A stretch of DNA of 64,000 bases from a virus. The translations under genes were made by a program, and so were the position numbers. The DNA lies in IMG/VR virus record IMGVR_UViG_3300009431_000002, positions 1-64,000 of that record, one strand, 5' to 3'. Shown piece after piece: positions 15,593 to 57,931 of this stretch (position 1 is its first letter; the number at the start of each line of letters is the position of its first letter). Below the pieces are notes generated by a model. It searched no databases. It was not told the DNA's origin and saw nothing but the letters and a program-made list of their open reading frames with translations.

Positions 15593-15593
15593 T

Positions 15594-24012: not shown

Positions 24013-24245
24013 GCCGCATCTCCTGCGGCGTCCCCATCTACAAGCCCAACGATGAGTGCCTCTGGTACTACTGGCTCGACGGCAAGCAGGGCTACTACAG
24101 CGGCTGGCTGTGGGCACGTACCCGCATCGGCGCCCGGCGCAAGATCAAGAAGAAGCACCCCAACAACAGCATCGACTCGGTGCTGCACCAAGACCAGTAC
24201 CACGGTCGCAGTCAGCACTGCCCGTTGGACAGAGGAGGACCATGA
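24009..24245 (+). CDS. Small basic aromatic protein (78 aa)
   Basis: GTG 24009 overlaps the previous stop (GTGA). The product has WYYWLDGKQGYYSGWLWART followed by RRKIKKKH, aromatic then basic, which may bind nucleic acid. The next gene starts four bases before its end. Confidence 0.58.
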   Translation: MSRISCGVPIYKPNDECLWYYWLDGKQGYYSGWLWARTRIGARRKIKKKHPNNSIDSVLHQDQYHGRSQHCPLDRGGP

Positions 24246-24715
24246 GCAAGTTCGACATCGACTTCGAGACTACCCGAGACGGCACGCGGTGCTGGGGCGT
24301 CATCTACAGGGATGGCGAAGAGGTCTGGAGGGACAGGCCCTGGCCTGCCGACGGCAGCGCCCAGCAGGCGGGCTACGAGAAGCTGAAGAAGCTACGAAAG
24401 GCGGAAGCGGTACTGGATGACGCTTCCCAGGAGGCCCCCAAGTCAGCCAACACGGTCTGCCGTGTTGAGTTTCGGCTCTACTACGACGTCCCAGAGCACC
24501 TCGTCAAACGCGCTGGGGACACCATCATCAGCGCCATCGAGTGCATGGTCGCGGACCACGATGTGGTTCCAGAGGTCCGCACACTTCGGGCCGACGAGGT
24601 GGACCAAGACCTAGTGGACTACGCCCTGGGCTTCCTGGACGAAGGCTGCCCCACCTGTGGCGGCAGCCTGGACGACGGCATCTGCATGAGCGGGTGCGAC
24701 AACCTCCTCCCCTGA
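24242..24715 (+). CDS. Unknown protein with C-terminal zinc-ribbon-like Cys set
   Basis: The 157-residue product has an alpha/beta body and ends with CPTCGGSLDDGICMSGC (about residues 136-152), a C-x-x-C plus C-x3-C arrangement suited to one zinc ion. GAGGAGG precedes ATG 24242. It is the last gene of the 18.8-24.7 kb operon; tRNA region 2 follows on the opposite strand after 44 bases. Confidence 0.65.
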   Translation: MSKFDIDFETTRDGTRCWGVIYRDGEEVWRDRPWPADGSAQQAGYEKLKKLRKAEAVLDDASQEAPKSANTVCRVEFRLYYDVPEHLVKRAGDTIISAIECMVADHDVVPEVRTLRADEVDQDLVDYALGFLDEGCPTCGGSLDDGICMSGCDNLLP

Positions 24716-24759
24716 CAGGAGGCCCGCGTTCTGCAGTGCCTTCTTTCTTAGATCAAAGT

Positions 24760-24848
24760 TGGCGGAGAGGGGGAGAATCGAACTCCCGGCCCTGTCGGGT
24801 CAACGCCTTAGCAGGACGCGGTAGGGCACCAACGCCTACAGCCCCTCC
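24760..24848 (-). tRNA. tRNA-Ser(GCT)
   Basis: Class II: acceptor GGAGGGG/CCTCTCC, anticodon loop CTGCTAA, long variable arm, discriminator G, CCA encoded. It reads AGC. Confidence 0.9.
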
Positions 24849-24881
24849 TTGCCGCTCGAGCACGCACCCAGAATCACAGAA

Positions 24882-24923
24882 GCTCCGAACATACCGGCCC
24901 TTTGTTCGGAGCTACTCCGAACA
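24882..24923. repeat. Hairpin with triple TCCGAACA repeat between tRNA-Ser genes
   Basis: GCTCCGAACA (24882) and TGTTCGGAGC (24903) form a 10 bp stem with an 11-base loop; TCCGAACA recurs at 24916. It lies between two tRNA-Ser genes, with no gene in 24849-24926. It could be a processing structure or a protein site. Confidence 0.45.
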
Positions 24924-24926
24924 TTG

Positions 24927-25012
24927 TGGCGGATGGAGAGCGGATCGAACGCTCGCTGGTGTCCCAGGCCTCGACTTTCCAAGCCGGCACCTTGCCACTC
25001 GGTCACCCATCC
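24927..25012 (-). tRNA. tRNA-Ser(GGA)
   Basis: Class II: acceptor GGATGGG/TCCATCC, anticodon loop TTGGAAA, discriminator G, CCA encoded. It reads TCC. The stop codon of the 25003-25413 gene lies in its acceptor region. Confidence 0.9.
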
Positions 25013-25413
25013 GTGTTGGAGGAGGGTGGGGGATTCGAACCCCCGCACCCAGGGTCACTGGACTCGCCGGATTTCCGGACCTTGACCCCCCTTTTGCGCA
25101 GCTCTGCGCGCCAGGTGCTGTCGCCTAGTGCATCACCTGTGGCGAGGCAGTTGCCCAGGACAGGTACCCGGCAGTGTGCCCTACCGGCAACCCAGTCCTC
25201 CCCCACGTATTCATGGATGCCCCCATCTTGGTCGACGGCGACCATACGGTCGGGAGGAAGGTCGAGTACACGTGACACCTGCGTCCAGACGTCGTCGATG
25301 ACATCGGGGCTGTGCCTAGACCGCGTAGCATGCCAAGGGACCGTGGGAAGTGCCCCAGCGAAACAGGTCCGCACGATCACAATGGCGTCCTCGTTGGCGC
25401 CGTGCTCACACAT
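25003..25413 (-). CDS. Unknown protein whose end runs into tRNA sequence
   Basis: From ATG 25413 the 136-residue product has an alpha/beta body up to about residue 105, then a low-complexity tail (PGCGGSNPPPSSNTDG) encoded by a tRNA-Ser 3' fragment and the first bases of the intact tRNA-Ser(GGA). The original stop seems lost or displaced by the junction. It lies downstream of an HNH endonuclease gene, suggesting one inserted cassette. Function unknown. Confidence 0.6.
   Translation of the reverse strand: MCEHGANEDAIVIVRTCFAGALPTVPWHATRSRHSPDVIDDVWTQVSRVLDLPPDRMVAVDQDGGIHEYVGEDWVAGRAHCRVPVLGNCLATGDALGDSTWRAELRKRGVKVRKSGESSDPGCGGSNPPPSSNTDG
25017..25085 (-). pseudogene. 3' part of a tRNA-Ser
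   Basis: The minus strand reads GGAAATCCGG (anticodon onwards as in a tRNA-Ser(GGA)), a long variable arm with CCAG/CTGG, T arm GGGGG/CCCCC, acceptor 3' strand ACCCTCC-T-CCA. No D arm or 5' acceptor is present. The break falls at the anticodon loop. It differs in sequence from the intact tRNA-Ser(GGA) next to it. Confidence 0.65.
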
Positions 25414-25876
25414 CGTTTTTCTTCTCCAGTCCGTAGTGCTCCTCGGCGTGGCAGTTGGGGCACAGCAGCTCCAGGTTCTCTGGGTCGTCCGTGCCCCCGT
25501 CAGCGCGGTGCACCTTGTGGTGCACAATCAGGATTTCCGGCAGTCGGTTATACGGGCACCGCTCACACTGCTCTCCACGGAGCTCCCCGAGCATCTTCCG
25601 GAGACGCTTCTTGCGCGCCATGTGGCTATTAGGTTGTCCCTGCCCATATTTGATGCCTGTCCTTTTCTTGTTCGAGCAGGCCTTGCTGCAGGTGATCCTG
25701 CGGCTGTTACCGGCCAGAAACTCGTCGCCGCACACCGGACAGGTCTTCGGCTTCCTGCACCACTTCCCATAGCAGGCCTTGCTGCAGAAGACCTTTCCGC
25801 TCTTCGAGTTCAGATCGCGCTTCCTCCGGTAGACGGGCTTCTCGCAGACAGCACACTCGGCATTGGGTTTGTGCAT
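25406..25876 (-). CDS. HNH homing-type endonuclease with zinc fingers
   Basis: The 156-residue protein starts with several C-x-x-C or C-x3-C knuckles (about residues 8-67; for example CPVCGDEF, TCSKACSNK), a basic linker, another Cys pair (CERC, 104-107) and an HNH motif: VHHKVHRADGG (118-128), PENLELLCPNCH (132-143). Free-standing HNH nucleases are common mobile elements in phages. It lies in tRNA region 2, next to a partial tRNA-Ser. ATG 25876 is the only good start. Confidence 0.88.
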   Translation of the reverse strand: MHKPNAECAVCEKPVYRRKRDLNSKSGKVFCSKACYGKWCRKPKTCPVCGDEFLAGNSRRITCSKACSNKKRTGIKYGQGQPNSHMARKKRLRKMLGELRGEQCERCPYNRLPEILIVHHKVHRADGGTDDPENLELLCPNCHAEEHYGLEKKNDV

Positions 25877-25909
25877 GATATGAAATCATAGCACACCCAA
25901 TACCAGAAG

Positions 25910-25995
25910 TGGCGGGCAGGGTGGGAGTCGAACCCACGGAGCTTTCGCCCACTGGTTTTCGAGACCAGCACCATAAGCCACTCGGACACCTGCCC
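25910..25995 (-). tRNA. tRNA-Ser(CGA)
   Basis: Class II: acceptor GGGCAGG/CCTGCCC, anticodon stem CTGGT/ACCAG with loop CTCGAAA, CCA encoded. It reads TCG. Confidence 0.92.
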
Positions 25996-26193
25996 TCACT
26001 TCTGCTTGGGCGGGTCGGCCTTCTCTCGTGCCTTACCAGACTCGGCCAACCCTCCCAGTCGCTCGATCCGCAGACCGTAGTGGTGGGTTGACTCACCTGG
26101 CTTCAGCGCCGCCATCTTCATGCCGAGCCCGGGCTCGTTCCATGGCGCGTCGGCCAGCACCTCCGCATGCTTCTCTCGTCTGTCCTCGGCCAT
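25996..26193 (-). CDS. Small basic protein between tRNA genes (65 aa)
   Basis: ATG 26193 is chosen because GGAGG lies five bases upstream. The product is polar and basic (AEDRREKHAEVL, then a Lys-rich end), and its stop abuts tRNA-Ser(CGA). Longer starts at 26238 and 26280 lack ribosome sites. Not recognised. Confidence 0.5.
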   Translation of the reverse strand: MAEDRREKHAEVLADAPWNEPGLGMKMAALKPGESTHHYGLRIERLGGLAESGKAREKADPPKQK

Positions 26194-26242
26194 CTGGGCC
26201 TCCGTTTTGCAACCCAACGTCCTTGACAGGACGGGCATCTTG

Positions 26243-26330
26243 TGGTGGGCCGGGGAGGGATCGAACCTCCAGGGTCGCAATGACTCCGGGTCTACAGTCC
26301 GGCGCGCTTCCAGTTACGCTCTACCGACCC
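26243..26330 (-). tRNA. tRNA-Tyr(GTA)
   Basis: Class II as in bacteria: acceptor GGGTCGG/CCGGCCC, anticodon loop CTGTAGA with an A-C mismatch at the stem end, long variable arm, CCA encoded. It reads TAC. Confidence 0.88.
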
Positions 26331-26346
26331 ACGTGTATTCAGTTGT

Positions 26347-26422
26347 TGGCGGAGACGACGGGGCTCGAACCCGCTACCTCCCGGGCGACAGCCGGGCGTC
26401 CTTCCACCAGGACCTCGTCTCC
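26347..26422 (-). tRNA. tRNA-Asp(GTC)
   Basis: Acceptor GGAGACG/CGTCTCC, anticodon stem CCCGG/CCGGG with loop CTGTCGC, CCA encoded. The D arm (GTCC/GGAC) is atypical but paired. It reads GAC. Confidence 0.92.
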
Positions 26423-26425
26423 GCA

Positions 26426-26501
26426 TGGTGGATCGGGCTGGAGTTGAACCAGCGGCACCGAGATTTTCAGTCCCGTGCTCTACCTGCTGAGCTACCGATC
26501 C
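26426..26501 (-). tRNA. tRNA-Phe(GAA)
   Basis: Acceptor GGATCGG/CCGATCC, anticodon loop CTGAAAA, CCA encoded. It reads TTC. Confidence 0.93.
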
Positions 26502-26504
26502 ACA

Positions 26505-26580
26505 TGGAGCAGGCATCCGGACTCGAACCGGAGATGACCGGAGCTGCAATCCGGCGCCTTACCAACTTGGCTATGCCCGC
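26505..26580 (-). tRNA. tRNA-Cys(GCA)
   Basis: Acceptor GCGGGCA/TGCCTGC, anticodon loop TTGCAGC, discriminator T as usual for Cys, CCA encoded. It reads TGC. It is the promoter-proximal tRNA of array 2. Confidence 0.93.
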
Positions 26581-40894: not shown

Positions 40895-41048
40895 TGCAAG
40901 TCCCTCCAGGTCGGTGCTATAAGTGGAGTGGTCGGCGTGTACGGTTCCCGGTGACGCGCGGCTGGACACCCCATCGTCGACCGGTGCGTCGTCAGCCACC
41001 CCGTGGGTTCGGGGAAAGGGCGGCGCACCTCATACCACCCTCTTTTAC

Positions 41049-41732
41049 CTATGCTGTCAGCATCGCGTAGATGCGCTTCTCCAGTTCAGCGCCACCGGAC
41101 ACGTCCCGAAGGATGCGGTGGAGCGGGTACACCAGCTGCCCCCTGCTGATCCGGGCCTTGTGGGCACCCTGCAGCAGCACGGCCGTCTGGTAGCGGATGT
41201 CGTCCTGGGCGAACCGGGCGACGAGGTCGGCCGAGTGCTCGGCCACACGAAAGTAGTGGGCCATGGCCCGTGCGACGTTCCTGGTGGTCGCCCTGAAGTA
41301 GATCTGGCCGGTCAGGAACGCCGCGTTGATGAAGTTGTGGCAGTGCGGGCACATCGCCGCGCCGTCGTGGACGTACTGCGGCGCGATGAACTTGCCGCAA
41401 CCGCCACCGCCACCGGGGCGGCCGACCTCGAAGTTGTCGCGCTCCGAGCCGCTGTCGGCCTCACGGCACAGGTACAGCATCTCGTCCCCGCCGCCGTGGA
41501 GCTTGCTGCCACTGAGCCAGAAGGTCAGCACACCCTTGTTGGGGCCCTGCAGGGTTCGGTTGGTCCCGAAGTTGACCTGCACCTTGTACTTGGCGATGAC
41601 GCGGCTGGCCAGCTCCTGCTTCTTCATGTCCTGCAGCAGCGCCAGCCCGCGGGCGAGGCCCTGCGGCGTCGTGCCGCGCATCATCTCCTCGGCGGAGACG
41701 AGGTTCTCGAATCGCTCGTTCGTCATGCTCAC
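41049..41732 (-). CDS. Unknown protein with possible zinc site (227 aa)
   Basis: The middle has C and CG(K) then CPHCHNF (about residues 88-135), with a Gly-rich loop, which would bind one zinc. The remainder is helical. It overlaps the next gene by four bases. Not recognised. Confidence 0.68.
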   Translation of the reverse strand: MSMTNERFENLVSAEEMMRGTTPQGLARGLALLQDMKKQELASRVIAKYKVQVNFGTNRTLQGPNKGVLTFWLSGSKLHGGGDEMLYLCREADSGSERDNFEVGRPGGGGGCGKFIAPQYVHDGAAMCPHCHNFINAAFLTGQIYFRATTRNVARAMAHYFRVAEHSADLVARFAQDDIRYQTAVLLQGAHKARISRGQLVYPLHRILRDVSGGAELEKRIYAMLTA

Positions 41733-42322
41733 CTACCGAGGATGCCCTTGGCACCCTTCTCACTCGGGATCATACGCCCCTCGGCGCCCTCGACCATCCC
41801 GCGCGGGATGTTCCGCATATTCGTGCCACCGGGCAGGCTCAGGACGAACTCCTTCTTCCTCCCGGACCGACGCTCGGCACGGATGTGCTCCTGCGAGACG
41901 GCCTCGCGCTTCCGGGTCCGCAGCACGTTGCGCTGCGCGTCCCGCATCTCGGGGTCCTCTTCGATCTTGGACTTCCGCGCCCGCGGGTCCTGGCTGCGGA
42001 CGGCGTAGTCCTGCTGCGGGTTCGAGAACGCGCGGCTGATGACCGCGAACATGGCGCGCAGCGACCCCTCGGCGTCCTGGGTCCACAACGACACGTTCCA
42101 CAGATACCCGCGCTGCCCATGGAGCTCGATGAGCTGCTTGGCCACGAACAGCTTGGAGTGCTTCAGGCAGTCCATCAGCGTGAACGCGAGCGTCTCCCAC
42201 CCATTCTCCTGCGCCGGCGTGATGCGGCACAGCACGGTGTACACGCCGTCCCTCTCGCCCTTCCACCGGACCGTGGCGTAGGGGATGCGGCCGATGATGT
42301 TGGCCAGGCCGTCAGCACTCAT
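41729..42322 (-). CDS. Unknown protein, basic C-terminus (197 aa)
   Basis: An alpha/beta N-terminal half (YATVRWKGERDGVYTVLCRI; LIELHGQRGYLWNV) is followed by a strongly Arg/Lys-rich half (RTRKREAVSQEHIRAERRSG). It overlaps the 42312 gene by 11 bases. Function unknown. Confidence 0.65.
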   Translation of the reverse strand: MSADGLANIIGRIPYATVRWKGERDGVYTVLCRITPAQENGWETLAFTLMDCLKHSKLFVAKQLIELHGQRGYLWNVSLWTQDAEGSLRAMFAVISRAFSNPQQDYAVRSQDPRARKSKIEEDPEMRDAQRNVLRTRKREAVSQEHIRAERRSGRKKEFVLSLPGGTNMRNIPRGMVEGAEGRMIPSEKGAKGILGR

Positions 42323-43507: not shown

Positions 43508-43959
43508 TCCATCACCTCCACAACGCAGCGGGTCCAGGGCGCGCCCTGGTAGGTCACCGCCGTCGCCTCCACGAGGTGGAGAGGCTCGTCGTTGGGCAGC
43601 GCCAAGCCCAGCGACGCGATGTTGGCCTGCGGCGAGTCCACGTAGAGCTCACCGCCCGCGCCGATGGAGGCCCGGACCAGCGCACCGCCCACCTTCAGGT
43701 TGATCCAGTCGTTGGGCAGGTCCAGGATGGTCTCGTCGGGCTCGTCGGTGGCGTCACCGAGCAGCTCGTCGAGCTCGTCGTTCAGCGCCTGGGCGCCCTC
43801 GATCCCGTCCGGCACGCTACCCTGGGCCGAACCATGCTGGTGGCTCATCGGTGGGAGCGCCCCCCTCTCCTCGAGAAACTGGAGCTGGTTCTTCGGGATC
43901 ACCCCATGAGTCGTCAACAGGTCCACGATCTTCTGCCGGTTCGACATAGCGTCCTCCAA
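43504..43959 (-). CDS. Unknown acidic protein (151 aa)
   Basis: ATG 43959 or 43947. The N-terminus looks like a small helical domain (QKIVDLLTTHGVIPKNQLQ), followed by an acidic linker and a beta-type C-terminal half (LKVGGALVRASIGAGGELYV). It overlaps the 43817 gene by 130-143 bases. Confidence 0.62.
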   Translation of the reverse strand: MEDAMSNRQKIVDLLTTHGVIPKNQLQFLEERGALPPMSHQHGSAQGSVPDGIEGAQALNDELDELLGDATDEPDETILDLPNDWINLKVGGALVRASIGAGGELYVDSPQANIASLGLALPNDEPLHLVEATAVTYQGAPWTRCVVEVME

Positions 43960-44488
43960 CCGTCATCTTGAGGGCCACCTGGGTCTCGGAGGGGCCCGCC
44001 CCGGCGCGCTTGGCACCGAAGACGATGACGACATCAGGCGGAAGCATCCGCGCCTCCACGACGCGGGCGTTGCAGATCATCCAGTCGTCCCCTGTGAGCC
44101 ACGCCTCCGCGCCCAACCAGCGCCGCAGCGCGTCCTTGTCGTGGCACAGAACGTGTGTGGGGACGAACTTGCCCGTGCCCACCAACATGAACAGCGAGAA
44201 CATCTGCGACCGCGGCTCCCTCGCCAGCTCGCCTGGGGCCGGAGCCCACTCGGCGAGGACCACGCGGTTGATCATGTCCTCCAACGTCAGCTCGGCCAAC
44301 AACGGGTCGTCCGGTGAGTCGACCTTGTCCGCCGGCGCAATCCGCTCGACGTAGATCGGCTCCCCGACGTTGAGAGCGATCATCTCGACATCGCCCGGCA
44401 TGGCGAGGATGCGGGCTACCGCGGCCGCAATCTCGTCGACCGTGGCCGGGCACGGATGGTGCTCAGTAACGCGTACCTTCCCTGGCAC
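43817..44488 (-). CDS. Unknown alpha/beta protein (223 aa)
   Basis: The first 175 residues are well-formed alpha/beta sequence (MIALNVGEPIYVERIAPADK; MFSLFMLVGTGKFVPTHVLC; DDWMICNARVVEARMLPP), while the last 45 are acidic/Gly-rich and overlap the next gene. It overlaps the RHH gene by 26 bases upstream. No family recognised. Confidence 0.62.
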   Translation of the reverse strand: MPGKVRVTEHHPCPATVDEIAAAVARILAMPGDVEMIALNVGEPIYVERIAPADKVDSPDDPLLAELTLEDMINRVVLAEWAPAPGELAREPRSQMFSLFMLVGTGKFVPTHVLCHDKDALRRWLGAEAWLTGDDWMICNARVVEARMLPPDVVIVFGAKRAGAGPSETQVALKMTVGGRYVEPAEDRGPVDDSWGDPEEPAPVSRGEGGAPTDEPPAWFGPG

Positions 44489-44663
44489 TGTCTTCCTCCT
44501 CCTTCAGCGCGACCAGGTAGTCGCGGAGGATCTGGCTCAACGTGTTGGACTTGCGACGGGCGTAGGCGAGGGCCCACTGATGTAGGTCCTTCGGCAGCTT
44601 GATGTTGAGGCGGCTGGTCTCGCCGTCCCACTGGCCGCGCTTTCGGATGGGGATCTCAGGCAT
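44463..44663 (-). CDS. Ribbon-helix-helix regulator
   Basis: The 66-residue product reads ETSRLNIKLPKDLHQWALAY then SNTLSQILRDYLVALKEEE, a strand-helix-helix dimer unit of the CopG/Arc class. GGAG precedes ATG 44663, and a TTGACA-N17-TACCAT promoter with an inverted repeat GTACA-N5-TGTAC overlaps the -10 region. This fits an autoregulated repressor; the same repeat lies at 55405. Confidence 0.78.
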   Translation of the reverse strand: MPEIPIRKRGQWDGETSRLNIKLPKDLHQWALAYARRKSNTLSQILRDYLVALKEEEDSAREGTRY

Positions 44664-44674: not shown

Positions 44675-44703
44675 ATGGTACACACGCTGTACTTACCTGT
44701 CAA
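44675..44703 (-). promoter_or_regulatory. Sigma70-like promoter with inverted-repeat operator
   Basis: Minus strand TTGACA (44703-44698), 17 bases, TACCAT (44680-44675). The 15 bp element GTACA-N5-TGTAC (44678-44692) covers the spacer and -10. Identical hexamers precede the 57657-57896 gene. Confidence 0.65.
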
Positions 44704-45995
44704 GGCGGTCCTGCGAGCGAGTACCCCAACGCCTCCACGACGTCGGGATCGGCCGCGTCGCGCATCGCCTTGAGCAGCGGCTGGCTGTACCGACGCATGT
44801 ACTCCCCCTCGAGGTAGTACGCTCGCCGGGTGAAGGTCTTGTCTTCCAGCCCGTCGTCGCGGGAGAAGTGCTCCAACATCGGCGCAAGGCACCTGTCCGG
44901 CAGACGGACCACGCCGGGCACTGCTTCGCGCCCGAAGAGCGCCGCGACCCGCCGGAGCTCGACGCCCGGGTTGCGCAGGAGATCCTCGTAGCGCACGACC
45001 GCGGCGCGCTTGCCCTCGAAGAAGTCGAGCCAGGCACGGTGCAGCTTGTTCCAGCGCCCCATCCACTTCGTGACCGCTTCGGGCGTCACCGAGACCCGAC
45101 GCTTCGTGAGGCGTTCGGCCCATTCGGCGAAGCTGATGCACCAGGCGTAGGGGTTCTTCACGCTCAAGATGAAGCCGAGGTCGCCGCGGTCGTGGGCCGC
45201 CTTCACGTTGGTCTGCTCGTACTGCGAGGTGAACCCACGCGCGACGAGCGGCGACCAATCCCAATCGAGCTCCGCCGGCGCGTGGTGCTTCCCGCCGAGC
45301 GGGTTGGAGAGGACGCGGGCGTGGACGTACTCCTCGAGGAGCAGCTTGAGGAGGTTCGTGCCGGACCGCTCGATGCCGTACTGCTTGACGTAGAGCTTGC
45401 GTCCGCGGGGCTGGCTGCAGTTCGGGCCCGTGATGACCCGCCGGACGTCGGCGATCTCGGGACCAGTCGGCGGCTGCACCCGCCACCAATCTGTTCGCCA
45501 CCGACCGTTCGTGGTCTGCCCACCATCTGTTGCGAAGCGGCCGACGAGGTCCGCGCCGAAGTCGTAGTACCGCCGCTCAGCGTTGTCCAGCGCGATGACG
45601 CCGCCGCTGCGCACGGCGAGGAGTGCTGCCGCGAGGCAGCGGACGCGACGACGGCCATCCACGAGTGCGAAGTCAGCGCCCTGCAGGCCGACTGCGTCCA
45701 CGCCGGCCATCGGGTAGGCTGTCCGGTCGCCCCACACCGGCACGTGCTGCAGGCGGACCTGCTGGGGCAGCCTGGGGCGAAGGTCCTTGACGGCGGGAGC
45801 ATGGTGTTCGACCGACGACCACCCCTTCGTCCGGCGGGCGAACCACAGGGTCGACTCGCCGGAGCCCCACTCCAGGCCAACCCAGTTGCCCGTGTCCCAG
45901 GACTCGAAGAGGTCGATGAACTCGCGGGTCAGCCACGGCTCTCCGGGGCCACCGGTCAGCGCTTTGTACCTGTGCTTCGGGTTGATCCACGTCAT
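44700..45995 (-). CDS. Fusion: SAM methyltransferase-like domain + sulfotransferase-like domain
   Basis: ATG 45995 gives 431 residues; a much longer open frame upstream is shadow. Residues about 20-150 resemble a class I methyltransferase: LEWGSGEST (41-49), ADFALVDGRRR (107-117), GGVIALDNAE (131-140). From about residue 198 a second domain begins with LYVKQYGIERSGTNLLKLL, whose SGTN loop corresponds to the 5'-phosphosulfate-binding loop, and continues with FILSVKNPYAWCISF (275-289) and RYEDLLRNP. It lies last in the glycan-modification run. The pairing suggests two successive changes on one sugar or peptide. Confidence 0.75.
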   Translation of the reverse strand: MTWINPKHRYKALTGGPGEPWLTREFIDLFESWDTGNWVGLEWGSGESTLWFARRTKGWSSVEHHAPAVKDLRPRLPQQVRLQHVPVWGDRTAYPMAGVDAVGLQGADFALVDGRRRVRCLAAALLAVRSGGVIALDNAERRYYDFGADLVGRFATDGGQTTNGRWRTDWWRVQPPTGPEIADVRRVITGPNCSQPRGRKLYVKQYGIERSGTNLLKLLLEEYVHARVLSNPLGGKHHAPAELDWDWSPLVARGFTSQYEQTNVKAAHDRGDLGFILSVKNPYAWCISFAEWAERLTKRRVSVTPEAVTKWMGRWNKLHRAWLDFFEGKRAAVVRYEDLLRNPGVELRRVAALFGREAVPGVVRLPDRCLAPMLEHFSRDDGLEDKTFTRRAYYLEGEYMRRYSQPLLKAMRDAADPDVVEALGYSLAGPP

Positions 45996-46675
45996 CGGGG
46001 CACCCGGCAGTCGTACCCAAGGGCCCGCGCGAGCTGCGGCAGGGCCGCATCGCTCCGAAGGCGGCGACGCAGGGCCACGACATCCGCTGCAGAGCAAGTC
46101 TTCCACGGCTCGAGACGGCTCGGGTCGAGCGGCCGGTGGCCTCCCATCGCCTTGGTCGCCCACGGGTCGTCTGTCCTGAAGTGCCGGTGGCAGCCTGCGA
46201 AGGTGCGGCAGTCCTGGAGGTGGAAGGCGCGACGCAGCTGCCGCTGGATCGTCGCCGGGTCGGTGACCAGGGTCTCGAAGCGGACGACCTGAACATTCGC
46301 GTGCTGCCGAAACCGCAAGAGCATCCGCGCGGCGTAGGCCCACCGGCTCGGCGGGACGTAGAACTTGCCGCCGCTGGCGGGGTGGCGAGACAGCAGCACG
46401 GCCTTGGGGTCCCGGACCATGAACACGACGCCCACGCCAGCGGCCAGGGCCTCCCTGACGTCCTCCACCGACTCCGCGAGGTCCACCCAGTGCTTGGAGA
46501 CCATCCGCGGGTACTTCAGCGCCACGCACGACGACGGTGAGATGTGAACGTCCGGGACACACCGCCACTCGTGCTCCCCGGGTACGTGGGCGATGTCCCG
46601 GTACCCGGCGCCGATCAAGAAGTGCATCAGGGTGTTGCCCGAGCGAGCGCACCCGGTGGTGACGATCCGCCTCAC
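45992..46675 (-). CDS. Sulfotransferase-family protein
   Basis: The 227-residue protein begins RRIVTTGCARSGNTLMHFLI with the 5'-phosphosulfate loop (about 8-15), followed by ALKYPRMVSKHW, VFMVRDPKAVLLSRHP (3'-phosphate-binding R...S region, about 83-98) and VVRFETLVTDP. Sulfotransferases move sulfate from PAPS to sugars or other hydroxyls. It overlaps the 44700 gene by four bases and abuts the methyltransferase-radical SAM gene. Confidence 0.83.
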   Translation of the reverse strand: MRRIVTTGCARSGNTLMHFLIGAGYRDIAHVPGEHEWRCVPDVHISPSSCVALKYPRMVSKHWVDLAESVEDVREALAAGVGVVFMVRDPKAVLLSRHPASGGKFYVPPSRWAYAARMLLRFRQHANVQVVRFETLVTDPATIQRQLRRAFHLQDCRTFAGCHRHFRTDDPWATKAMGGHRPLDPSRLEPWKTCSAADVVALRRRLRSDAALPQLARALGYDCRVPR

Positions 46676-47986
46676 CTACTTCTTCCCGAAGAACTCCTTC
46701 ACCACCTTCGGCCGCATGGCGACAGCGACCTTGCGGTTCGACAGGCACATCGAGCAGAAAGGTTGCTTCAGCCGGTCCTGCTGCAACAGGCGGTTGAGGA
46801 AGTGGGGCCGCAGGGTGTCGTGGAACTGCGGGAAGTTGTCGTAGTCGCGGCCGAGGTGCAGCGCCGTGTTCCGGCCGTTGGGGCAGATGTCGACCTTCCC
46901 CTCGCGCAGCGTGAACTTCGCGCAGTTGCAGTGCGCCGGCAACGACTTCGGCACCGGGACGACGGGGCCGTTCACCCGCTGCTCCCGTTCCGAGATGACG
47001 ATGTGCTTGGCCTCGCCGTACTTGCCGGCCTTCGGGAAGGCCTTGCGCACCGCGGCCACCTGGGCCTTGTTGCCGGAGTACTCCGAGATCCGAACGAGGT
47101 CGGCCATCTCCAGCACGGGCGCGTACTTCCTGGTGGTCTTCTCGGTGAAGGGCAGCACCGCGGTGAGGATGTCCACCTGGTCCGTCAGGCCGGACTCCTT
47201 GAGCCGCTTGACGCCGGCGGCGATGTACTTCCACATCAGAGGCTCGCCGCCGCAGAGCGTGATGACGCGGTAGTGGTAGCCCGACTGCTTGCTGTAGTCG
47301 ATGAAGCGGTCGACCTCGGCCAACGACATGTGGTGGTTGGGAGAGCCCTCCATCCACTCGCGGACGATGCAGGGCACGCACCCACCCGAGCAGGTCGTGG
47401 TGGCCATCAGCGTCATCTTCAGCACGGGTTTCCTGGCGAACCAGGTGCTCCCCGGGCCACGCTGGAGCTCCAGGCCCTGCAGGGCGCAGAACTCGTCCAC
47501 GGCGTGGATCACGCCTGGGAACCAGCCCGCGTAGTCGTGGCCCGCGAGCCACCCACCGGGCTTGACCTTGCCGTACCATGCCCGGAGGTCGGCCGAGACG
47601 TCCTTGTAGCCGTGGCCGGCGTCCACGAAGACCATGTCGAGGGTCCGGTCTCCGATCATCTCCGCCGCGTCCACCGACGGCATGTGCATCGGCCGCACGT
47701 CGCACTTGGCGTCGCCGCGCGTGATCTCCAGGAAGGTCGCCTTGGCGTCGCGGTGCTCCTGGACCGACTCGTCCCAGGAGTCCACGGCGTAGAGCACCGC
47801 GGGAGGAACGGCCTCGAGCATGTAGCTCGTGCTCAGCCCAGAATGGACCCCCACCTCGGCCATCGTCCGCACGCGCTTCTCCCGGACGAACTTGGCGTAC
47901 CACTCCCCCTCCTTGGGGAAGAACCACCCCATGACCTCGCGTCCGCGGAACTGCCTGCTGCCTCGACTCTTGAAGTTGATCGCCAC
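46676..47986 (-). CDS. Fusion: SAM methyltransferase (MT24-like) + radical SAM domain
   Basis: The 436-residue protein has a methyltransferase domain in residues 35-160: EVGVHSGLSTSYML (44-57), YAVDSWDE (66-73), VFVDAGHGYKDVSADLRAWY (119-138) and KPGGWLAGHDY (142-152). After a short link comes a radical SAM core with C199-x3-C203-x2-C206, ITLCGGEPLMWKY (about 232-244) and C-terminal Cys sets (HCNC, DICPNG, FCSMC) like SPASM/Twitch auxiliary-cluster domains. Such a fusion could methylate and radically modify one acceptor. Its neighbours are glycosyl- and sulfotransferases. Confidence 0.82.
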   Translation of the reverse strand: MAINFKSRGSRQFRGREVMGWFFPKEGEWYAKFVREKRVRTMAEVGVHSGLSTSYMLEAVPPAVLYAVDSWDESVQEHRDAKATFLEITRGDAKCDVRPMHMPSVDAAEMIGDRTLDMVFVDAGHGYKDVSADLRAWYGKVKPGGWLAGHDYAGWFPGVIHAVDEFCALQGLELQRGPGSTWFARKPVLKMTLMATTTCSGGCVPCIVREWMEGSPNHHMSLAEVDRFIDYSKQSGYHYRVITLCGGEPLMWKYIAAGVKRLKESGLTDQVDILTAVLPFTEKTTRKYAPVLEMADLVRISEYSGNKAQVAAVRKAFPKAGKYGEAKHIVISEREQRVNGPVVPVPKSLPAHCNCAKFTLREGKVDICPNGRNTALHLGRDYDNFPQFHDTLRPHFLNRLLQQDRLKQPFCSMCLSNRKVAVAMRPKVVKEFFGKK

Positions 47987-47995
47987 GTCGTCCTC

Positions 47996-49825
47996 CTACC
48001 AGGCGTCCTTGCTGGAGACCCTGGGTCCAGTCACGCGATACTGGCACAGGAAGCCGTCGTGCGCACGAGCCTTCCGGTGCTTCTGCCTGTACCGCTTGTA
48101 GAAGTCGTAGTCGTGGCCCTTCTTCCAGACACCCTGTCCGGTGGACCACTCCTCGTCGTACATCGTCTCCAGCGCCCACGCAGTGCGGAACGCCACGCAG
48201 CCGCTGTGCGGGGCGAACCGGCGCCCCTCCTTGCCGTCCCATCGATGCTCCCCGACGCGCTCCCCGCCGTGGTCGATCAGCCGTGCGCTGCCCCAGAACA
48301 AGCCCAGCTGCGGGTCCTTCTCGAACGCCTCGACGGTGATCTTCAGCCGGTCGGGCAAGGAGATGTCGTCGTCGTCGTTGTTGGCGATGAGCGGGGCTCG
48401 CGCGTGCAACAGCACCTGGTTGCGCTTCCACGACAGGTTGCTGTTGGGGTAGTGGAACCACACGATCCGCGGGTCCCTGAAGGACTCCAGCACCTTCCGC
48501 ACCTTCGGGTCTGTGCTGTCGTCGATGATGATGAGCTCCCAGTCGCGCATCGACTGCGCCAGGATCCCCTCGATGGCCTGGAACAGGAACCGCGGCCGGT
48601 TGTGCGAGACCATCATCACCGTGACCTTCGGCGCGTTGGTCGCCGTCCGCAGGCCGTGCCGCCGTCGCCAGATATTGCCGAGGCGCATTAGGTCCTCCTT
48701 CTCCCAGTTCTGGTACATGTCCAAGCTCACCTCGGGGGCGTCGTCGGCGGCGAGCTCCTCGGCGAGCGCCCTTCGCCACTCGTCGAGGTCGTGCGGAGGC
48801 ACGAACACTCCGTGGTGCGGAAGGGCTTCGCGGATCCCAGGTAGGTCTGAGGCGATGACCCTCGCGCCCCCGATGGCCGCCTCCACAGCGGCCATGCCGT
48901 AGGTCTCGGTCTCCGAGGGCATGAGGTGAACCCGGCTGCGCGAGAAGAAGCGCCGCAGGTCCCGGGCCGGCCCCACCATCTGGACGTTCGGCAACACCTC
49001 CAGGCCCTCGACCTGGGTGCCGTAGCCGCCGCGGGCGATGAGGAAGTGCTGGTCGTTGAACTCCCGGGCCAGTTCCCGGACGATGTTGCCGCCCTTCGAC
49101 CCGGAGGGGTTGATCATGGTCACGCTGTCCCGCTTCGGCGCCAGTCCCCCGAGGATGCGCGACGTGTCGATGACTGGACGGACGATCACGCTGTCCTTCG
49201 GCTTCCCGCACTCCTCCCACAGCGAGTACGAGTTGAAGATCCATCCTGCGGGCTTGTACCCCTGTGAAAGCGGATGGTCGTAGCTCCACTTCACGTGGCA
49301 GTACAGGTAGACCGGCACGGTGCCGAGCTCGAGGAACGGATGCGCAGCCTCGAACTGCGCCACGACCACGTCCGGCCGCATCCGCGCGAGCAGGGGCTTG
49401 ACGTAGTGCCGTTCCCATCTTGGGAACCCGGAGTGCAGGAGCACCCCCTCCATCGACTCCACTCCGCCAGGGCCCTCGCCCTCGACTGCGACGACATCGA
49501 AGCCGTCCCGGACCAGGGCCTGGGCCAGCCCCATCATCGCGGTCTCGCCCCCGGCGTAGACGTAGGGGGGCAGCCTCGGGGACACGCACAGGACCAGTGG
49601 CTTGGTCTTGGGGGGCGCACCCGTCAGCAGGAGCATCGCGGCGCCCCGCCGTCCAGGCTTGACGTTCAGCGGGCGCCCTTCGATCTCGCCCATCCTCGTC
49701 ACGACGTTGCCTGCGAAGCGCGTGTAGCGCTCGGCGGGTACAGGGCTCGTCGGGGCCAGGACTGCGACGACGTCGCTGAACGTCTCGTAGATCCTATCCG
49801 AGATCAGGTGGATGTCGTCAGCCAC
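47996..49825 (-). CDS. Fusion of GT4 (GT-B) and GT2 (GT-A) glycosyltransferases
   Basis: GTG 49825 is set by GGAG seven bases upstream and an eight-base overlap with the preceding gene. The 609-residue protein has a GT-B domain: VSPRLPPYVYAGGETAMM (about 78-95), INPSGSKGG, VQMVGPARDLRRFFSRSRV and PSETETYGMAAVEAA (about 295-320). A GT-A domain begins near residue 385: VTVMMVSHNRPRFLFQAIEG, IIIDDST and NNDDDD as the metal-binding DxD. Two linkages could be built by one polypeptide. It lies in the glycan block. Confidence 0.87.
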   Translation of the reverse strand: MADDIHLISDRIYETFSDVVAVLAPTSPVPAERYTRFAGNVVTRMGEIEGRPLNVKPGRRGAAMLLLTGAPPKTKPLVLCVSPRLPPYVYAGGETAMMGLAQALVRDGFDVVAVEGEGPGGVESMEGVLLHSGFPRWERHYVKPLLARMRPDVVVAQFEAAHPFLELGTVPVYLYCHVKWSYDHPLSQGYKPAGWIFNSYSLWEECGKPKDSVIVRPVIDTSRILGGLAPKRDSVTMINPSGSKGGNIVRELAREFNDQHFLIARGGYGTQVEGLEVLPNVQMVGPARDLRRFFSRSRVHLMPSETETYGMAAVEAAIGGARVIASDLPGIREALPHHGVFVPPHDLDEWRRALAEELAADDAPEVSLDMYQNWEKEDLMRLGNIWRRRHGLRTATNAPKVTVMMVSHNRPRFLFQAIEGILAQSMRDWELIIIDDSTDPKVRKVLESFRDPRIVWFHYPNSNLSWKRNQVLLHARAPLIANNDDDDISLPDRLKITVEAFEKDPQLGLFWGSARLIDHGGERVGEHRWDGKEGRRFAPHSGCVAFRTAWALETMYDEEWSTGQGVWKKGHDYDFYKRYRQKHRKARAHDGFLCQYRVTGPRVSSKDAW

Positions 49826-50558
49826 GGTCCAGCTCCAGCACCTTCCGGACGCCCCACGGCCGCGGGGCCACGCCGTCCCGTTTGATGGTCTCGAACATCT
49901 CGTTGTTGCGGTGGTGGTCCCCGGCCGCGGCCGCGGACGGATGGTCTTGGTGGATGATGAGCGGGTCGTCGATCCAGCTGATGTCGCCGACCTGGTCGGC
50001 CTTCCAGACGGCGTGGTCGTCTTCGGCGCCCCAGCCGACGAAGCGTTCGTCGACGCCGGAGATCGCAGCCCACAGGGCACGCTCCGCGCCCATCGACATA
50101 CCGTTGGCACACCGAGACCAGGGGTTGGGCTGCGACGACGCGAAGTAGGCGCCCCAGTCCGACGAGAGGTCCTCACCCTCGGCGGCCTCGCGGCCGCGCC
50201 GGTGCTCGCACATGAGCATCAGATTCGGCCGGAGCCGGGCCTCGTAGGTCTCGACGAAGTGGGGGGCTGCGACGGCGTCGACGTCCAGCACGACGACGTG
50301 GCGACTCCGGCTCACGCGGATGCCGCAGTTGATGCTCGCGGCCCGACTGAACCGCGGGTCCCGCCACTCCACACGGAGGAACGTGAAACCGAAGGACCTG
50401 GTGATGCCGCGGATGTTGTCGAGGTGGTCTGTCGCGCTGGACAGGTCCGAGACGACGACCTCCTCAGGAGGCACCGTCTGGCGCGCCAAGGCGTTGAGGC
50501 AGTTCCACAACCGGGCGCCGCCACGGTCGCGCTGCGGGATGACGACCGTGGTGCCCAT
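49818..50558 (-). CDS. GT2-family glycosyltransferase with GT7C-like C-terminus
   Basis: The 246-residue protein begins TTVVIPQRDRGGARLWNCL, with VVVLDVDAVAAP (about 88-99) as D-x-D and GWGAEDDHAVWK (about 174-185), the pattern of galactosyltransferase-type C-terminal regions. It transfers a sugar from a nucleotide donor. It is the first gene of the glycan block and overlaps the next by eight bases. Confidence 0.85.
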   Translation of the reverse strand: MGTTVVIPQRDRGGARLWNCLNALARQTVPPEEVVVSDLSSATDHLDNIRGITRSFGFTFLRVEWRDPRFSRAASINCGIRVSRSRHVVVLDVDAVAAPHFVETYEARLRPNLMLMCEHRRGREAAEGEDLSSDWGAYFASSQPNPWSRCANGMSMGAERALWAAISGVDERFVGWGAEDDHAVWKADQVGDISWIDDPLIIHQDHPSAAAAGDHHRNNEMFETIKRDGVAPRPWGVRKVLELDRG

Positions 50559-50840
50559 CTACTCCGGCGGGACCTCCTGCTCCTGGACGTTCTGGAGCTT
50601 CGTCAGCCAGTCGTCCAGTCCCTCGAACATCGGGAAGCGCTCCCCGAGCCAGCAGGCGATGAACACGTGCGCCTCGCGCATGTCGCGCTCCGACGTCGTC
50701 AGCTCGCCGGCGAAGCGGTCGTTCAGCGCCTGGGCCAGCCGGATGTGCAGGTCACCCTGCACCGCGATGAAGGAGGGGAGGAGATCCCACCGGATCTCGA
50801 CGTTCCCCTCCTTGCGGCTACTGGGCCTGACGAGCAGCAC
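50559..50840 (-). CDS. Small unknown protein (93 aa)
   Basis: GTG 50840 overlaps the 50818 gene by 23 bases; no better start is visible. The product looks helical with IRWDLLPSFIAVQGDLHIRL and RFPMFEGLDDWLTKLQNVQ. Its stop is adjacent to the glycosyltransferase start. Function unknown. Confidence 0.58.
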   Translation of the reverse strand: MLLVRPSSRKEGNVEIRWDLLPSFIAVQGDLHIRLAQALNDRFAGELTTSERDMREAHVFIACWLGERFPMFEGLDDWLTKLQNVQEQEVPPE

Positions 50841-51162
50841 TGGGCCAGTCCACCAGCTTGAAGTCGAGCTCGAAGCCCGGCACGCGGTACGCCATCTCCT
50901 GGATGCGGTCCACGAGCGGCACCGGAATGGTCTGGTCCTCGCGGTGGTACAGCTCCAGCTCCAGGTGCTGCGTGACCTCGCCGGTCTCCGGGTCCAGGTC
51001 GCAGGTGAACCGGCAGCGCTTCACCAGCTGCAGCGCTTGGCCGTCGACGGTGATGACCGTCTGGTCCGGCGTGGCGCCGACGAGGATCTGCACCGGGTGG
51101 TTCTGGGAGGCGGTGGGGCGGCGGCCTGGCCGCTGTACTCCTTGGTCGATTCGACGTACCAT
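50818..51162 (-). CDS. Small beta-rich protein (114 aa)
   Basis: The N-terminus is basic, followed by strands (VQILVGATPDQTVITVDGQ; CRFTCDLDPETGEVTQHLEL). No motif. It lies 11 bases after the GroES gene in the same direction. Confidence 0.6.
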   Translation of the reverse strand: MVRRIDQGVQRPGRRPTASQNHPVQILVGATPDQTVITVDGQALQLVKRCRFTCDLDPETGEVTQHLELELYHREDQTIPVPLVDRIQEMAYRVPGFELDFKLVDWPSAARQAQ

Positions 51163-51172: not shown

Positions 51173-51529
51173 TCACATCACCGCGAGGTCGACGTCGTCG
51201 CCGACCTTCATCGTGATGTCGTTCATGTGCAGCAGGCAGTGCTCGACGTCCTCCACCTTCTTCAGGGGGATGGCGTCCTTGAGGAAGCGGCGGAAGGTGA
51301 TCCGGTCGCCCGGCTCCACCGGCGGCGTCAGGGTCACGCCCTTGTCGGTGAGCTGGCCGGGGCCGACGCGGACCACGCGGCCGACGCCCTCCATGACGTG
51401 CTCGCGGCCGACGTCCTGGTTGGGCCGGTACAGCCCGCCGCGGGTCTTCTCGCCGCGCGGCTCCACGGAGACGAGCACGTAGGGGCCCATCGGGCGGATG
51501 ACGTCGGGGTGGATGTCAGAGCTGTCCAT
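51173..51529 (-). CDS. groES: GroES-like co-chaperonin
   Basis: The 118-residue protein matches Cpn10: VIRPMGPYVLVSVEP (about 10-24), TRGGLYRPNQ as the mobile-loop region (about 29-38), GVGRVVRVGPG and VEPGDRITFRRF (about 71-82). GroES caps GroEL during folding; phage versions such as T4 gp31 adapt host GroEL to capsid protein. The C-terminal part differs from bacterial GroES (longer). It overlaps the 51516 gene by 14 bases. Confidence 0.85.
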   Translation of the reverse strand: MDSSDIHPDVIRPMGPYVLVSVEPRGEKTRGGLYRPNQDVGREHVMEGVGRVVRVGPGQLTDKGVTLTPPVEPGDRITFRRFLKDAIPLKKVEDVEHCLLHMNDITMKVGDDVDLAVM

Positions 51530-52525: not shown

Positions 52526-52929
52526 AGCTGACCCACTCCTCCCTCACCGGGCATGGACGGCTCGTGGTTGTATGACTCCCAGTCCGGGGCGTCGTCCACC
52601 TCGATGCCGGCCTCCTCGTCCATGTCGCCGAACGGGTCCTCGAGGCTTTCCGTCCGCGGTGGCGGCTGCTGTAGGACCCGCACCTCCGCGCCATCGGTGT
52701 GCGGCGCGGCCGGTGCTGGTGGCGCGGCGGGCTGCGACGACACAGTGTCGCCGGCCGGTGCAGAAGCGCCGGAGTCGGACTTCACCAGCCCCACGACCTT
52801 GGAGAGCTCCCGCTGGTCGATGACGACCTCCGCGGTGAGGCCGACGTCGTTCTTCAGGACCAGCGTGGTCGCCATCTGGCCACCGCGCTCCAGGTCCATC
52901 AGCTCTCCGACTCGGATGAGCCTGATCAC
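52522..52929 (-). CDS. Unknown acidic protein (135 aa), contains palindrome copy 3
   Basis: GTG 52929 has GGAGG five bases upstream. A short alpha/beta N-terminus (IRLIRVGELMDLERG; VVIDQRELSKVVGLVK) is followed by a Pro/Ala-rich linker and acidic tail. The DTVSS codons in the linker lie in the 13 bp palindrome and use the uncommon ACT. It overlaps the 52926 frame by four bases. Confidence 0.62.
   Translation of the reverse strand: MIRLIRVGELMDLERGGQMATTLVLKNDVGLTAEVVIDQRELSKVVGLVKSDSGASAPAGDTVSSQPAAPPAPAAPHTDGAEVRVLQQPPPRTESLEDPFGDMDEEAGIEVDDAPDWESYNHEPSMPGEGGVGQL
52738..52750. repeat. Palindrome CGACACAGTGTCG, copy 3
   Basis: Lies within the 52522-52929 gene, encoding DTVSS on the minus strand. 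Confidence 0.55.
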
Positions 52930-53429
52930 GTCCGCCTCCTTGCCCTCCGGACCTTGGAGGGTCGGGCACCCGCCCGTTCTCGCCACTCCTTGCTGCCGAT
53001 CCGCACCAGGTTGCCAGACTCCATCGCCTCGGCCCGGAGCTTCTCGGCCGCCGCCCCTCGGCGGCGCAGCCGCGACACCTGGGCCTGATTCGTCGTCGGG
53101 CCCAGCGGCCGGACAGCGATGGGCCCCATCGACGTCCAGTCGTGCAGCACGGCCTTCGCCTGCTGCTCGCGCTCCTTGATCTGGTCCTTCCGGAACGGGT
53201 AGAGCGCGTTACTGAAGTCCTCCAGTGCCTGTTGCACGTGCTTGCCCTCCTTGGGCGTCACGATTGCCTGGGTCAAGAGCCTGGCTTCCGTCCGCTGGAT
53301 CTCCTGCTTCCGTTGCCAGACCAACACCATGAGCGCCTCCTGCCAGCCCCCAGGATCGGGCATGCCGGCGAACTTGTCGTAGAAGATGTTCGCCAGTGCC
53401 CAGCCGACAGGAGTCGTTAGCCATTTCCC
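52926..53429 (-). CDS. Frameshift extension of tail-assembly-chaperone-like protein
   Basis: The frame has no credible start of its own. It begins at the slippery heptamer GGGAAAT (53429-53423) in the -1 frame of the upstream gene and continues WLTTPVGWALANIFYDKF..., ending with a basic tail. The size (about 167 residues), helical Gln/Glu-rich content and the slippage site match the T part of lambda G/GT-type tail assembly chaperones. The longer product would share its N-terminus with the 53417-54298 protein. Confidence 0.72.
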   Translation of the reverse strand, partial: GKWLTTPVGWALANIFYDKFAGMPDPGGWQEALMVLVWQRKQEIQRTEARLLTQAIVTPKEGKHVQQALEDFSNALYPFRKDQIKEREQQAKAVLHDWTSMGPIAVRPLGPTTNQAQVSRLRRRGAAAEKLRAEAMESGNLVRIGSKEWRERAGARPSKVRRARRRT

Positions 53430-54298
53430 AGTGTCTCCACGTTGATGGCGTCGCGGATGCGGTCGTCGAACCACCCGTGGTTGAGCCAGATGTCCTGGAG
53501 GATGACGAACGGCCGCGTGAGGAGGTCGAAGAACTTCTTCTCGAAGGTCTCCTCGTCCACCTCGCCGTTCGACTTGCGGTGCTCGAGGATCTCCTCGTCG
53601 TTGATGCGGGTCACCGACAGCGCCACCTGCACCATGCCCATGACGGTGTCGTGGTACATCTGGCTCGGCCGTTCGCCGACAGTGCTCTTGACCACGTCCC
53701 AGGTGTAGCGCTTGGCGAACAGGTCCTCCTGCCCGCTCAGAGCCCGGAAGGTCACCTCGAACTTGCCCTCGACGATGGGGACACGCTGGATGCCCCCGCG
53801 GCCCACCACGTAGTGCCGGATGTCGATGGGCTCGCACCGGGCCTCGATGGCCTCCCTCACCTCGGGGTTGTCGAGCTGGTCGGTGCGCTGCTGCATCAGC
53901 ATCTCGAAGAACTTGGGGTCGACGTCGGGGCGCGGCTTGTCACCCTCCTCCGCCTGCTCTTCGACCGCGGCGTCCGCCTGCTGCGCTGGCTGCTCCTCAC
54001 CCTCGTCCGGGGGCGGCGAGGCCGCGGCCGGCCCGGAGCCGAGACCGCCTGTGCGGATGGAGTCGCGGAGCTCGTCGGCCGTGAACGCCTCCTCCTGCTC
54101 CGGCATCATCGGGGGCGCGCCTCGGTGGGCGTGGTCGGTCAGGACCGGCGTGCCCGCGAGCGGCTTCGCGTGGCCGAGCGGGACACCGCCCTCCTGGCCT
54201 CCGCGTTGCGTCGCTGCGGCGATCCGCTGCTTGTAGTTCTCGACAGCCGCGTCGTCTGCGCCGTCGCCGAGTTCCAGAACTTGTCGCTTTGTCGCCAC
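53417..54298 (-). CDS. Tail-assembly-chaperone-like protein, short form
   Basis: The 293-residue protein has a polar, Pro/Asp/Glu-rich N-terminal half and a well-structured C-terminal half (VRALSGQEDLFAKRYTWDVV style; VMGMVQVALSVTRINDEEI; FFDLLTRPFVILQDIWLNH). It ends GNG-stop right after the GGGAAAT heptamer. Phage tail assembly chaperones are made in a short and a frameshifted long form that bind the tape measure protein. The tape measure lies 43 kb away, so the assignment rests on the frameshift layout. Confidence 0.7.
   Translation of the reverse strand: MATKRQVLELGDGADDAAVENYKQRIAAATQRGGQEGGVPLGHAKPLAGTPVLTDHAHRGAPPMMPEQEEAFTADELRDSIRTGGLGSGPAAASPPPDEGEEQPAQQADAAVEEQAEEGDKPRPDVDPKFFEMLMQQRTDQLDNPEVREAIEARCEPIDIRHYVVGRGGIQRVPIVEGKFEVTFRALSGQEDLFAKRYTWDVVKSTVGERPSQMYHDTVMGMVQVALSVTRINDEEILEHRKSNGEVDEETFEKKFFDLLTRPFVILQDIWLNHGWFDDRIRDAINVETLGNG
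53423..53429 (-). promoter_or_regulatory. Programmed -1 frameshift heptamer GGGAAAT
   Basis: On the minus strand the zero frame reads CTG-GGA-AAT-GGC-TAA; G-GGA-AAT is an X-XXY-YYZ slippery heptamer four bases from the stop-codon region. Slipping back one base opens the 52926 frame for about 167 codons. Confidence 0.72.
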
Positions 54299-57902: not shown

Positions 57903-57931
57903 ATGGTACGCACGCGCAATCCAACTGTCAA
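57903..57931 (-). promoter_or_regulatory. Sigma70-like promoter TTGACA-N17-TACCAT
   Basis: Minus strand TTGACA (57931-57926), 17 bases, TACCAT (57908-57903). The start codon ATG 57896 is seven bases from the -10, so the message would be nearly leaderless. The hexamers are identical to those at 44675-44703. Confidence 0.6.

Follow-up and report, generated by a model that had tools for sequence, protein, structure and literature searches.

The five adjacent genes at 44700-50558 on the minus strand of the genome of a large uncultured bacterial virus form an accessory cassette, most likely for glycan decoration, inserted into the operon that carries the tail-assembly-chaperone and GroES genes. 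The window analysed comprises the first 64,000 nucleotides of a 201,921-base phage record (IMGVR_UViG_3300009431_000002). We give about even odds to the cassette putting a methylated, sulfated glycan on a virion protein, and hold only tentatively the fuller picture, in which the glycan coating the virion carries both methyl and sulfate groups and has one of its sugars remodelled by a radical SAM enzyme that is joined to the sugar methyltransferase. In unrelated phages clusters of glycosyltransferase, methyltransferase and sulfotransferase genes adjoin capsid or tail-assembly genes, suggesting that phages sulfate their own glycans. Sulfotransferase genes occur in phage genomes without assigned role (PMC10580990), and the proposed reading, if true, would add a sulfated phage glycan and provide a function for these unexplained enzymes. 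Sulfation of phage glycans would bear on the tuning of surface charge, adhesion and recognition.

Enzymes Encoded by the Block

All five open reading frames that the first-pass annotation had placed here were found, co-directional on the minus strand, with neighbours overlapping by 4-8 bases or lying 0-9 bases apart. In the direction of transcription they encode a GT2 glycosyltransferase, a GT4-GT2 fusion, a Methyltransf_24-radical SAM fusion, a sulfotransferase and a methyltransferase-like/sulfotransferase fusion. Pfam bore out the proposed identities and fusions, the methyltransferase half of the last gene resting on weak evidence; searches for the sulfotransferase and radical SAM domains returned matches, some of them at or just below the Pfam cut-offs.

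The first gene (P0001, 49818..50558, 246 aa) matches PF00535 above the cut-off (4e-9) and carries a C-terminal WGAEDD motif of the galactosyltransferase (GT7C) kind (PF02709, 0.0014), and its product is homologous to gp144/gp143 of Mycobacterium phage Phrappuccino, annotated as 'galactosyl transferase', with E values down to 2e-7. The adjacent fusion (P0002, 47996..49825, 609 aa, with a corrected GTG start codon at 49825) combines a GT4 half (PF13692, 1.3e-13) with a GT2 half (PF00535, 2e-17), so that the two genes together provide three glycosyltransferase domains. The GT4 half matches gp20 of Streptomyces phage TurkishDelight, which lies between the major capsid and major tail genes. A further GT-B gene had been proposed at 56342, upstream in the same run; this assignment (P0006, 56342..57412, minus strand) is weak, as PF13692 reaches 3e-4 and 21.5 bits, below its cut-off of 27, and the product is best described as a probable GT-B glycosyltransferase.

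The third gene (P0003, 46676..47986, 436 aa) encodes a clear Methyltransf_24 half (PF13578, 2.3e-17), homologous to gp028 of cyanophage ACG-2014f. Its second half shows both the cluster motif and the family score of the radical SAM superfamily: the CX3CX2C motif is present as CSGGCVPC, together with C-terminal cysteines, Fer4_12 (PF13353) exceeds its cut-off, and Radical_SAM (PF04055) scores 2.1e-6 with 28.4 bits against a cut-off of 29.5 and rises above it, to 29.9 bits, in a frame-wise search. This half gives weak profile matches to MoaA, viperin and twitch-domain radical SAM proteins. A viperin identity was considered and rejected, since pVip is matched only weakly (2.7e-5, 21.8 bits), about as well as MoaA, and the context is unfitting.

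The small sulfotransferase (P0004, 45992..46675, 227 aa) matches Sulfotransfer_3 in two stretches with 1.1e-5 and 26.2 bits, 0.8 below the cut-off of 27, and a PAPS-loop-like TGCARSGNT as well as VRDPKAVLLS can be read from its sequence. Better defined is the C-terminal half of the last protein (P0005, 44700..45995, 431 aa, corrected start at 45995), which exceeds the Sulfotransfer_3 cut-off (6.8e-8), is homologous to three other viral open reading frames and has YG(L/I)xR(S/T)GTN...GxKH...VKNPYAWxxS in common with them; the family score and two PAPS-binding motifs that characterise PAPS-dependent sulfotransferases are both found in this protein. In its N-terminal half Pfam recognised no methyltransferase; phmmer returned a weak match to PDB 3cvo (E=0.044), which together with the motif LEWGSGEST hints at one. 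Single-sequence AlphaFold2 models of P0004 and P0005 had pLDDT values of 38 and 35 and were unusable. Phage-borne Sulfotransfer_3 (PF13469) genes like those of the block are also described in cyanophages and OM43 phage, where they are reported as auxiliary genes of unclear function (PMC10580990), whereas here they lie inside a putative glycan cluster.

Genomic Context

How did the block come to lie in this operon? On the upstream side it is bordered by a GroES co-chaperonin gene (51173..51529, minus strand; PHROG 3188, 2.6e-12) and on the downstream side by a conserved phage gene (43817..44488, minus strand), and 6.7 kb holding the block separate the two. Homologues of both are present in two long relatives, G005 and G006 (terminase identity 48-49%). 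There the GroES genes (131537-131911 in G005, 41010-41480 in G006) are followed directly by the homologues of the 43817-44488 gene (132044-132622 and 41584-42198, respectively). Because the border genes are contiguous in the relatives, the block is an accessory cassette. Two small minus-strand genes with no assigned function between the GroES and GT2 genes (50559-50840 and 50818-51162) have no homologue in G005 or G006 and may be part of the insertion; P0006 likewise lacks a counterpart in these two relatives. Dispersal of the five genes in related phages, which the first-pass annotation had named as evidence against its proposal, was not seen in that form: the block is absent from G005 and G006, and no relative carrying it was found. 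Contamination of the contig by host DNA was rejected, as the genes on either side of the block are conserved phage genes that keep their order in both relatives.

The cassette lies outside the main structural region of the genome (capsid gene at 115951-117072, terminase at 125817-127586). It does share a run with virion-assembly helpers, as originally proposed: besides the GroES gene, identified by its PHROG match, the run contains a tail-assembly-chaperone pair (52926..54298, minus strand) with a first frame at 53417-54298 and a -1 slippery heptamer G GGA AAT from 53429. Homologues of the first frame are found in G005 and G006, and the last part of the frame contains the slippery GGGAAAT in register both here and in G005 (at 130113). 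A promoter-like TTGACA-N17-TACCAT element stands at the start of the minus-strand run (57903..57931, minus strand), and a second copy lies directly behind the cassette (44675..44703, minus strand); these are the two exact matches in the window, where 0.34 would be expected with one mismatch allowed.

Comparable Clusters in Other Phages

The first-pass annotation could name no phage system of this composition, which holds only in part. Sugar-building clusters, among them glycosyltransferases with a methyltransferase, are already known in phages; what is unusual here is the addition of sulfate, the radical chemistry and the fusion of enzymes. Virion glycosylation has been reported for the mycobacteriophages Che8, Corndog and Myrna (PMC12363180, citing Freeman 2023). 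In Che8, gp108-110 form a glycosyltransferase cluster in which gp108 is a GT2-Methyltransf_24 fusion, and gp142-145 of Phrappuccino, a putative glycosylation row, encode three glycosyltransferases and a methyltransferase. What characterises this kind of cluster, at least two adjacent glycosyltransferase genes and a sugar-type methyltransferase within the cluster, is also found in the block, which shares Methyltransf_24 with Che8 (in P0003, and fused to GT2 in gp108) and the homology of P0001 to gp144 with Phrappuccino. Between the block and Che8 gp108-110 there is no significant sequence similarity (best E 0.8). Moreover, the Che8 and Phrappuccino records are without a sulfotransferase and their clusters have no annotated radical SAM gene, whereas the block has two sulfotransferase genes and P0003. 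Large algal viruses such as PBCV-1 glycosylate their capsids by virus-encoded glycosyltransferase and methyltransferase domains, a likeness of domain content, with the difference that these are eukaryotic viruses.

The combination with sulfotransferases recurs in two further phage lineages. In the uncultured phage G009 the order behind the major head gene is GT4-GT2-GT4-ST-MT24-MT-GT2-GT2-peptidase-ST-GT2 (ST, sulfotransferase; MT, methyltransferase), and in G007/G008, likewise uncultured, a GT2-GT2 fusion, ST, MT and GT9 lie beside baseplate/fibre-like genes. Like the block, each of these clusters holds GT2 with GT4 or GT9, methyltransferases and a pair of sulfotransferases, of which one is a homologue of the P0005 C-terminal half. 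They differ in their phage lineage and in that no radical SAM gene and no MT-ST or GT4-GT2 fusion was seen in them. Co-occurrence of the families in other phages was found for glycosyltransferase, methyltransferase and sulfotransferase, but not for radical SAM, which occurred in none of the other glycan clusters examined. Tblastn of P0001, P0004 and P0005 against 50,697 phage records yielded nothing, and no relative turned up when viral contigs were searched by pattern for P0002, P0003 and P0005, or genomes for P0003. A scan for glycosyltransferases of the P0001 type returned 32 viral contigs, many with further glycosyltransferase or Methyltransf_24 genes; none had a sulfotransferase or radical SAM match, which is weak evidence given the small, home-made and insensitive profiles used.

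Proposed Function and Alternative Explanations

In the proposed pathway P0001, P0002 and perhaps P0006 would use host nucleotide sugars in the cytoplasm to assemble a short glycan on one of the phage's virion proteins. The Methyltransf_24 half of P0003 would O-methylate a sugar, and its radical SAM half might remodel a sugar carbon by epimerisation, dehydration or the like, a role that is a guess because the domain is in no other examined glycan cluster. With host PAPS as donor, P0004 and the C-terminal half of P0005 would add sulfate, and P0005 may also methylate through its N-terminal half. Capsid or tail would thereby acquire an anionic, methylated coat. Donors would be host-supplied, as neither an epimerase nor an APS kinase was found in the phage record. 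The virion, which had been suggested as target, is favoured over the host surface; the acceptor itself, the order of the steps and the biological benefit, be it shielding, adhesion or receptor tuning, are what we infer.

Modification of the host envelope is the main rival to the virion reading, albeit a rather unlikely one. The enzymes would then rebuild or cap the host capsule or lipopolysaccharide during infection, which would block superinfection or conceal the infected cell. O-antigen conversion by phages is established, and lipid-linked or outer-core glycans of the host are also possible substrates of soluble glycosyltransferases, which counts against the virion as target. In addition, the glycosyltransferase domains partly match exopolysaccharide and teichuronic acid enzymes (EpsE, TuaG and WcaA profiles), and some bacterial sulfotransferase homologues are found near glycosyltransferase genes (in Cerasicoccus and Desulfobacterales). 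However, the block holds no flippase or GtrA/GtrB-type protein and no membrane-anchored glycosyltransferase as in the O-antigen conversion module, and its proteins have no convincing transmembrane segment, the highest 19-residue hydropathy being 0.9-1.75 with the top value in the methyltransferase-like core of P0005. Also against it, the block is in one run with virion-assembly helpers, and similar clusters adjoin capsid or tail genes.

Alternatively, the glycosyltransferase, methyltransferase, sulfotransferase and radical SAM enzymes could modify DNA bases, as phages have been suggested to possess nucleotide modification systems based on glycosyltransferases and sulfotransferases (PMC10829341, citing Iyer 2013). 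DNA methylases of the D12 class and of the C5-cytosine type are also encoded by this phage. Such a function is very improbable and DNA hypermodification was largely rejected: neither a Tet/JBP (PF12851) nor a thymidylate-synthase-type gene (PF00303) is present in the record, so that there is no evident source of a hydroxymethyl base, and the methyltransferase is of the Methyltransf_24 kind, the domain joined to a glycosyltransferase in Che8 gp108. Peptides or small molecules are frequent substrates of radical SAM proteins that carry additional cysteines, and the weak matches of P0003 to MoaA, viperin and twitch-domain proteins would agree with the production of a small sulfated metabolite or the modification of a host protein instead of a virion or envelope glycan. 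We consider this improbable, as the three neighbouring glycosyltransferase domains and the recurring phage clusters of glycosyltransferase, methyltransferase and sulfotransferase genes fit a glycan better.

A five-gene block with a probable role in glycan decoration

Five minus-strand genes follow each other nearly without gaps from 50558 to 44700. Pfam assigns a GT2 glycosyltransferase domain to the first (P0001), a GT4 followed by a GT2 domain to the second (P0002), and a Methyltransf_24 followed by a radical SAM domain to the third (P0003). The radical SAM family scored over its cut-off in the frame-wise search and the protein carries the CX3CX2C motif of these enzymes. The fourth gene product (P0004) matches Sulfotransfer_3 at a score 0.8 bits under the Pfam cut-off, and the fifth (P0005) matches the same family with its C-terminal half. 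The domain reading that the first-pass annotation gave for the five genes is right in the main. Its description of P0005 as a methyltransferase-sulfotransferase fusion holds for the C-terminal half, but the N-terminal half can only weakly be assigned as a methyltransferase. Similarly, the further GT-B gene proposed at 56342 (P0006) is present, but its assignment to this fold stays at a sub-threshold Pfam score. A ranking of the longer genes of this phage by codon fit places the two sulfotransferase genes at the 1st and 8th percentile and the gene for the methyltransferase-radical SAM fusion at the median, which may point to block genes of separate or of recent origin. Outside the window, a third GT2 gene is found at 80026-80955 of the phage record, of which a 62% orthologue is kept in G001, a viral contig with a related terminase.

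An accessory cassette in a conserved gene run

The window spans positions 1-64000 of an IMG/VR virus record that is 201,921 bases long and encodes a major head protein (115951-117072 of the record) and a large terminase (125817-127586 of the record), and the virus is therefore a large tailed phage. The GC content of the window is 67%. A related terminase was found in six viral contigs, with about 72% identity in G001-G003, which are fragments, and about 48% in G004-G006, among which are the long relatives G005 (188 kb) and G006 (183 kb). In the large terminases of G001, G002 and G003 an intein-like insert with a HINT-like start and a C-terminal HN/S splits the Walker A motif (GRQVEK/ST), as seen in stretches L016 and L018 within the first 500 residues of the frame; the window phage's own terminase is without it.

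The block lies in a gene run from 57.9 to 44.7 kb that is headed by a promoter-like TTGACA-N17-TACCAT element, a second copy of which is located directly behind the cassette; these two are the only such sites in the window. Both elements are inferred to act as promoters, with co-transcription of the genes in the run. Members of this run are the gene for GroES and those for a pair of proteins that resemble tail-assembly chaperones in having GGGAAAT, a slippery heptamer set in the -1 register, and G005 shares this site.

How did the block come to lie in this run? In both G005 and G006 a homologue of the gene at 43817-44488 follows within about 130 bases after GroES, whereas in the window phage the two genes are separated by 6.7 kb containing the five-gene block, two small genes and a further small gene at 44463-44663. 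No homologues of the block genes or of P0006 were found in G005 and G006. As judged from gene order, the block entered a conserved run of phage genes as an accessory cassette, because its border genes adjoin in these two relatives and block homologues are missing there. Loss of the block in G005 and G006 rather than gain in the window phage is the formal alternative to such an insertion. The slot was compared with these two genomes; the 72% relatives are fragments from outside it.

Related enzymes and clusters in other phages and bacteria

Several of the block enzymes have relatives in named phages. P0001 is homologous to gp143/144, two galactosyl transferases that Mycobacterium phage Phrappuccino encodes within a row of three glycosyltransferases and then a methyltransferase. 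The GT4 half of P0002 matches TurkishDelight gp20, encoded between the major capsid and the major tail protein, and the methyltransferase half of P0003 matches a cyanophage gene. A GT2-Methyltransf_24 fusion is gp108 of phage Che8, which lies inside the glycosyltransferase cluster of this phage, and the Che8 virion is described as glycosylated in PMC12363180, citing Freeman et al. 2023.

Three viral contigs (G007-G009) with true homologues of P0005 were detected by a DNA pattern derived from this protein's VKNPYAW motif. In G009 the major head gene is followed by GT4, GT2, GT4, sulfotransferase, Methyltransf_24, a methyltransferase-like gene, two GT2 genes, a peptidase, the P0005-homologous sulfotransferase and another GT2. 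G007 and G008 contain a GT2-GT2 fusion, a sulfotransferase-like gene, named from its motif as Pfam gave no match, a methyltransferase and GT9 genes, and baseplate- or fibre-like open reading frames adjoin. No radical SAM gene was found in the examined stretches of G009 and G007/G008. Bacterial members of the P0005 sulfotransferase family were detected chiefly in Bacteroidota and in some cases are encoded near glycosyltransferase genes. Behind the G009 cluster (stretch L061, 13423-16518) are long low-complexity Val-Asp/Val-Leu repeat frames, which probably arise when a repetitive gene is read on its antisense strand.

The system is a phage-encoded glycan decoration of a kind already known, with a putative product and acceptor. 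It is set apart by its two sulfotransferase genes, the methyltransferase-radical SAM fusion and the methyltransferase-like/sulfotransferase fusion.

Proposed product and acceptor

What could be made and onto what would it be placed? The block has enzymes with which a short glycan could be built and then methylated and sulfated. No convincing membrane segments were seen in the block proteins, and neither an NAD-dependent epimerase nor an APS kinase was found in the record, which argues that the donors would be supplied by the host and that the acceptor would be one accessible from the cytoplasm. As acceptor a virion protein is favoured, since the block adjoins virion-assembly helpers and similar clusters lie on the capsid side. 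A glycan of the host envelope is a possible acceptor as well, as soluble glycosyltransferases also serve such envelope pathways, and the location of the block and of similar clusters inclines us to the virion protein. That the block instead serves DNA hypermodification is disfavoured.

Other features of the record

At least six proteins, mostly from the virion gene region, have in common a short stretch close to their N-termini that reads approximately (A)FFDELxKI. They are encoded at 1400-1759 of the window and at 109315-109713, 109710-110426, 119771-120046, 141439-141861 and 152240-153178 of the phage record, and the shared peptide may serve as a tag for targeting, assembly or processing. 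The window also contains 29 tRNA genes at 12273-26580, in several groups and on both strands, and at 19616-20713 a magnesium-chelatase-type ChlI/MCM-like AAA protein (PF01078, 6e-70), near which an unnamed protein of PHROG 1735 is encoded (15982-18060).
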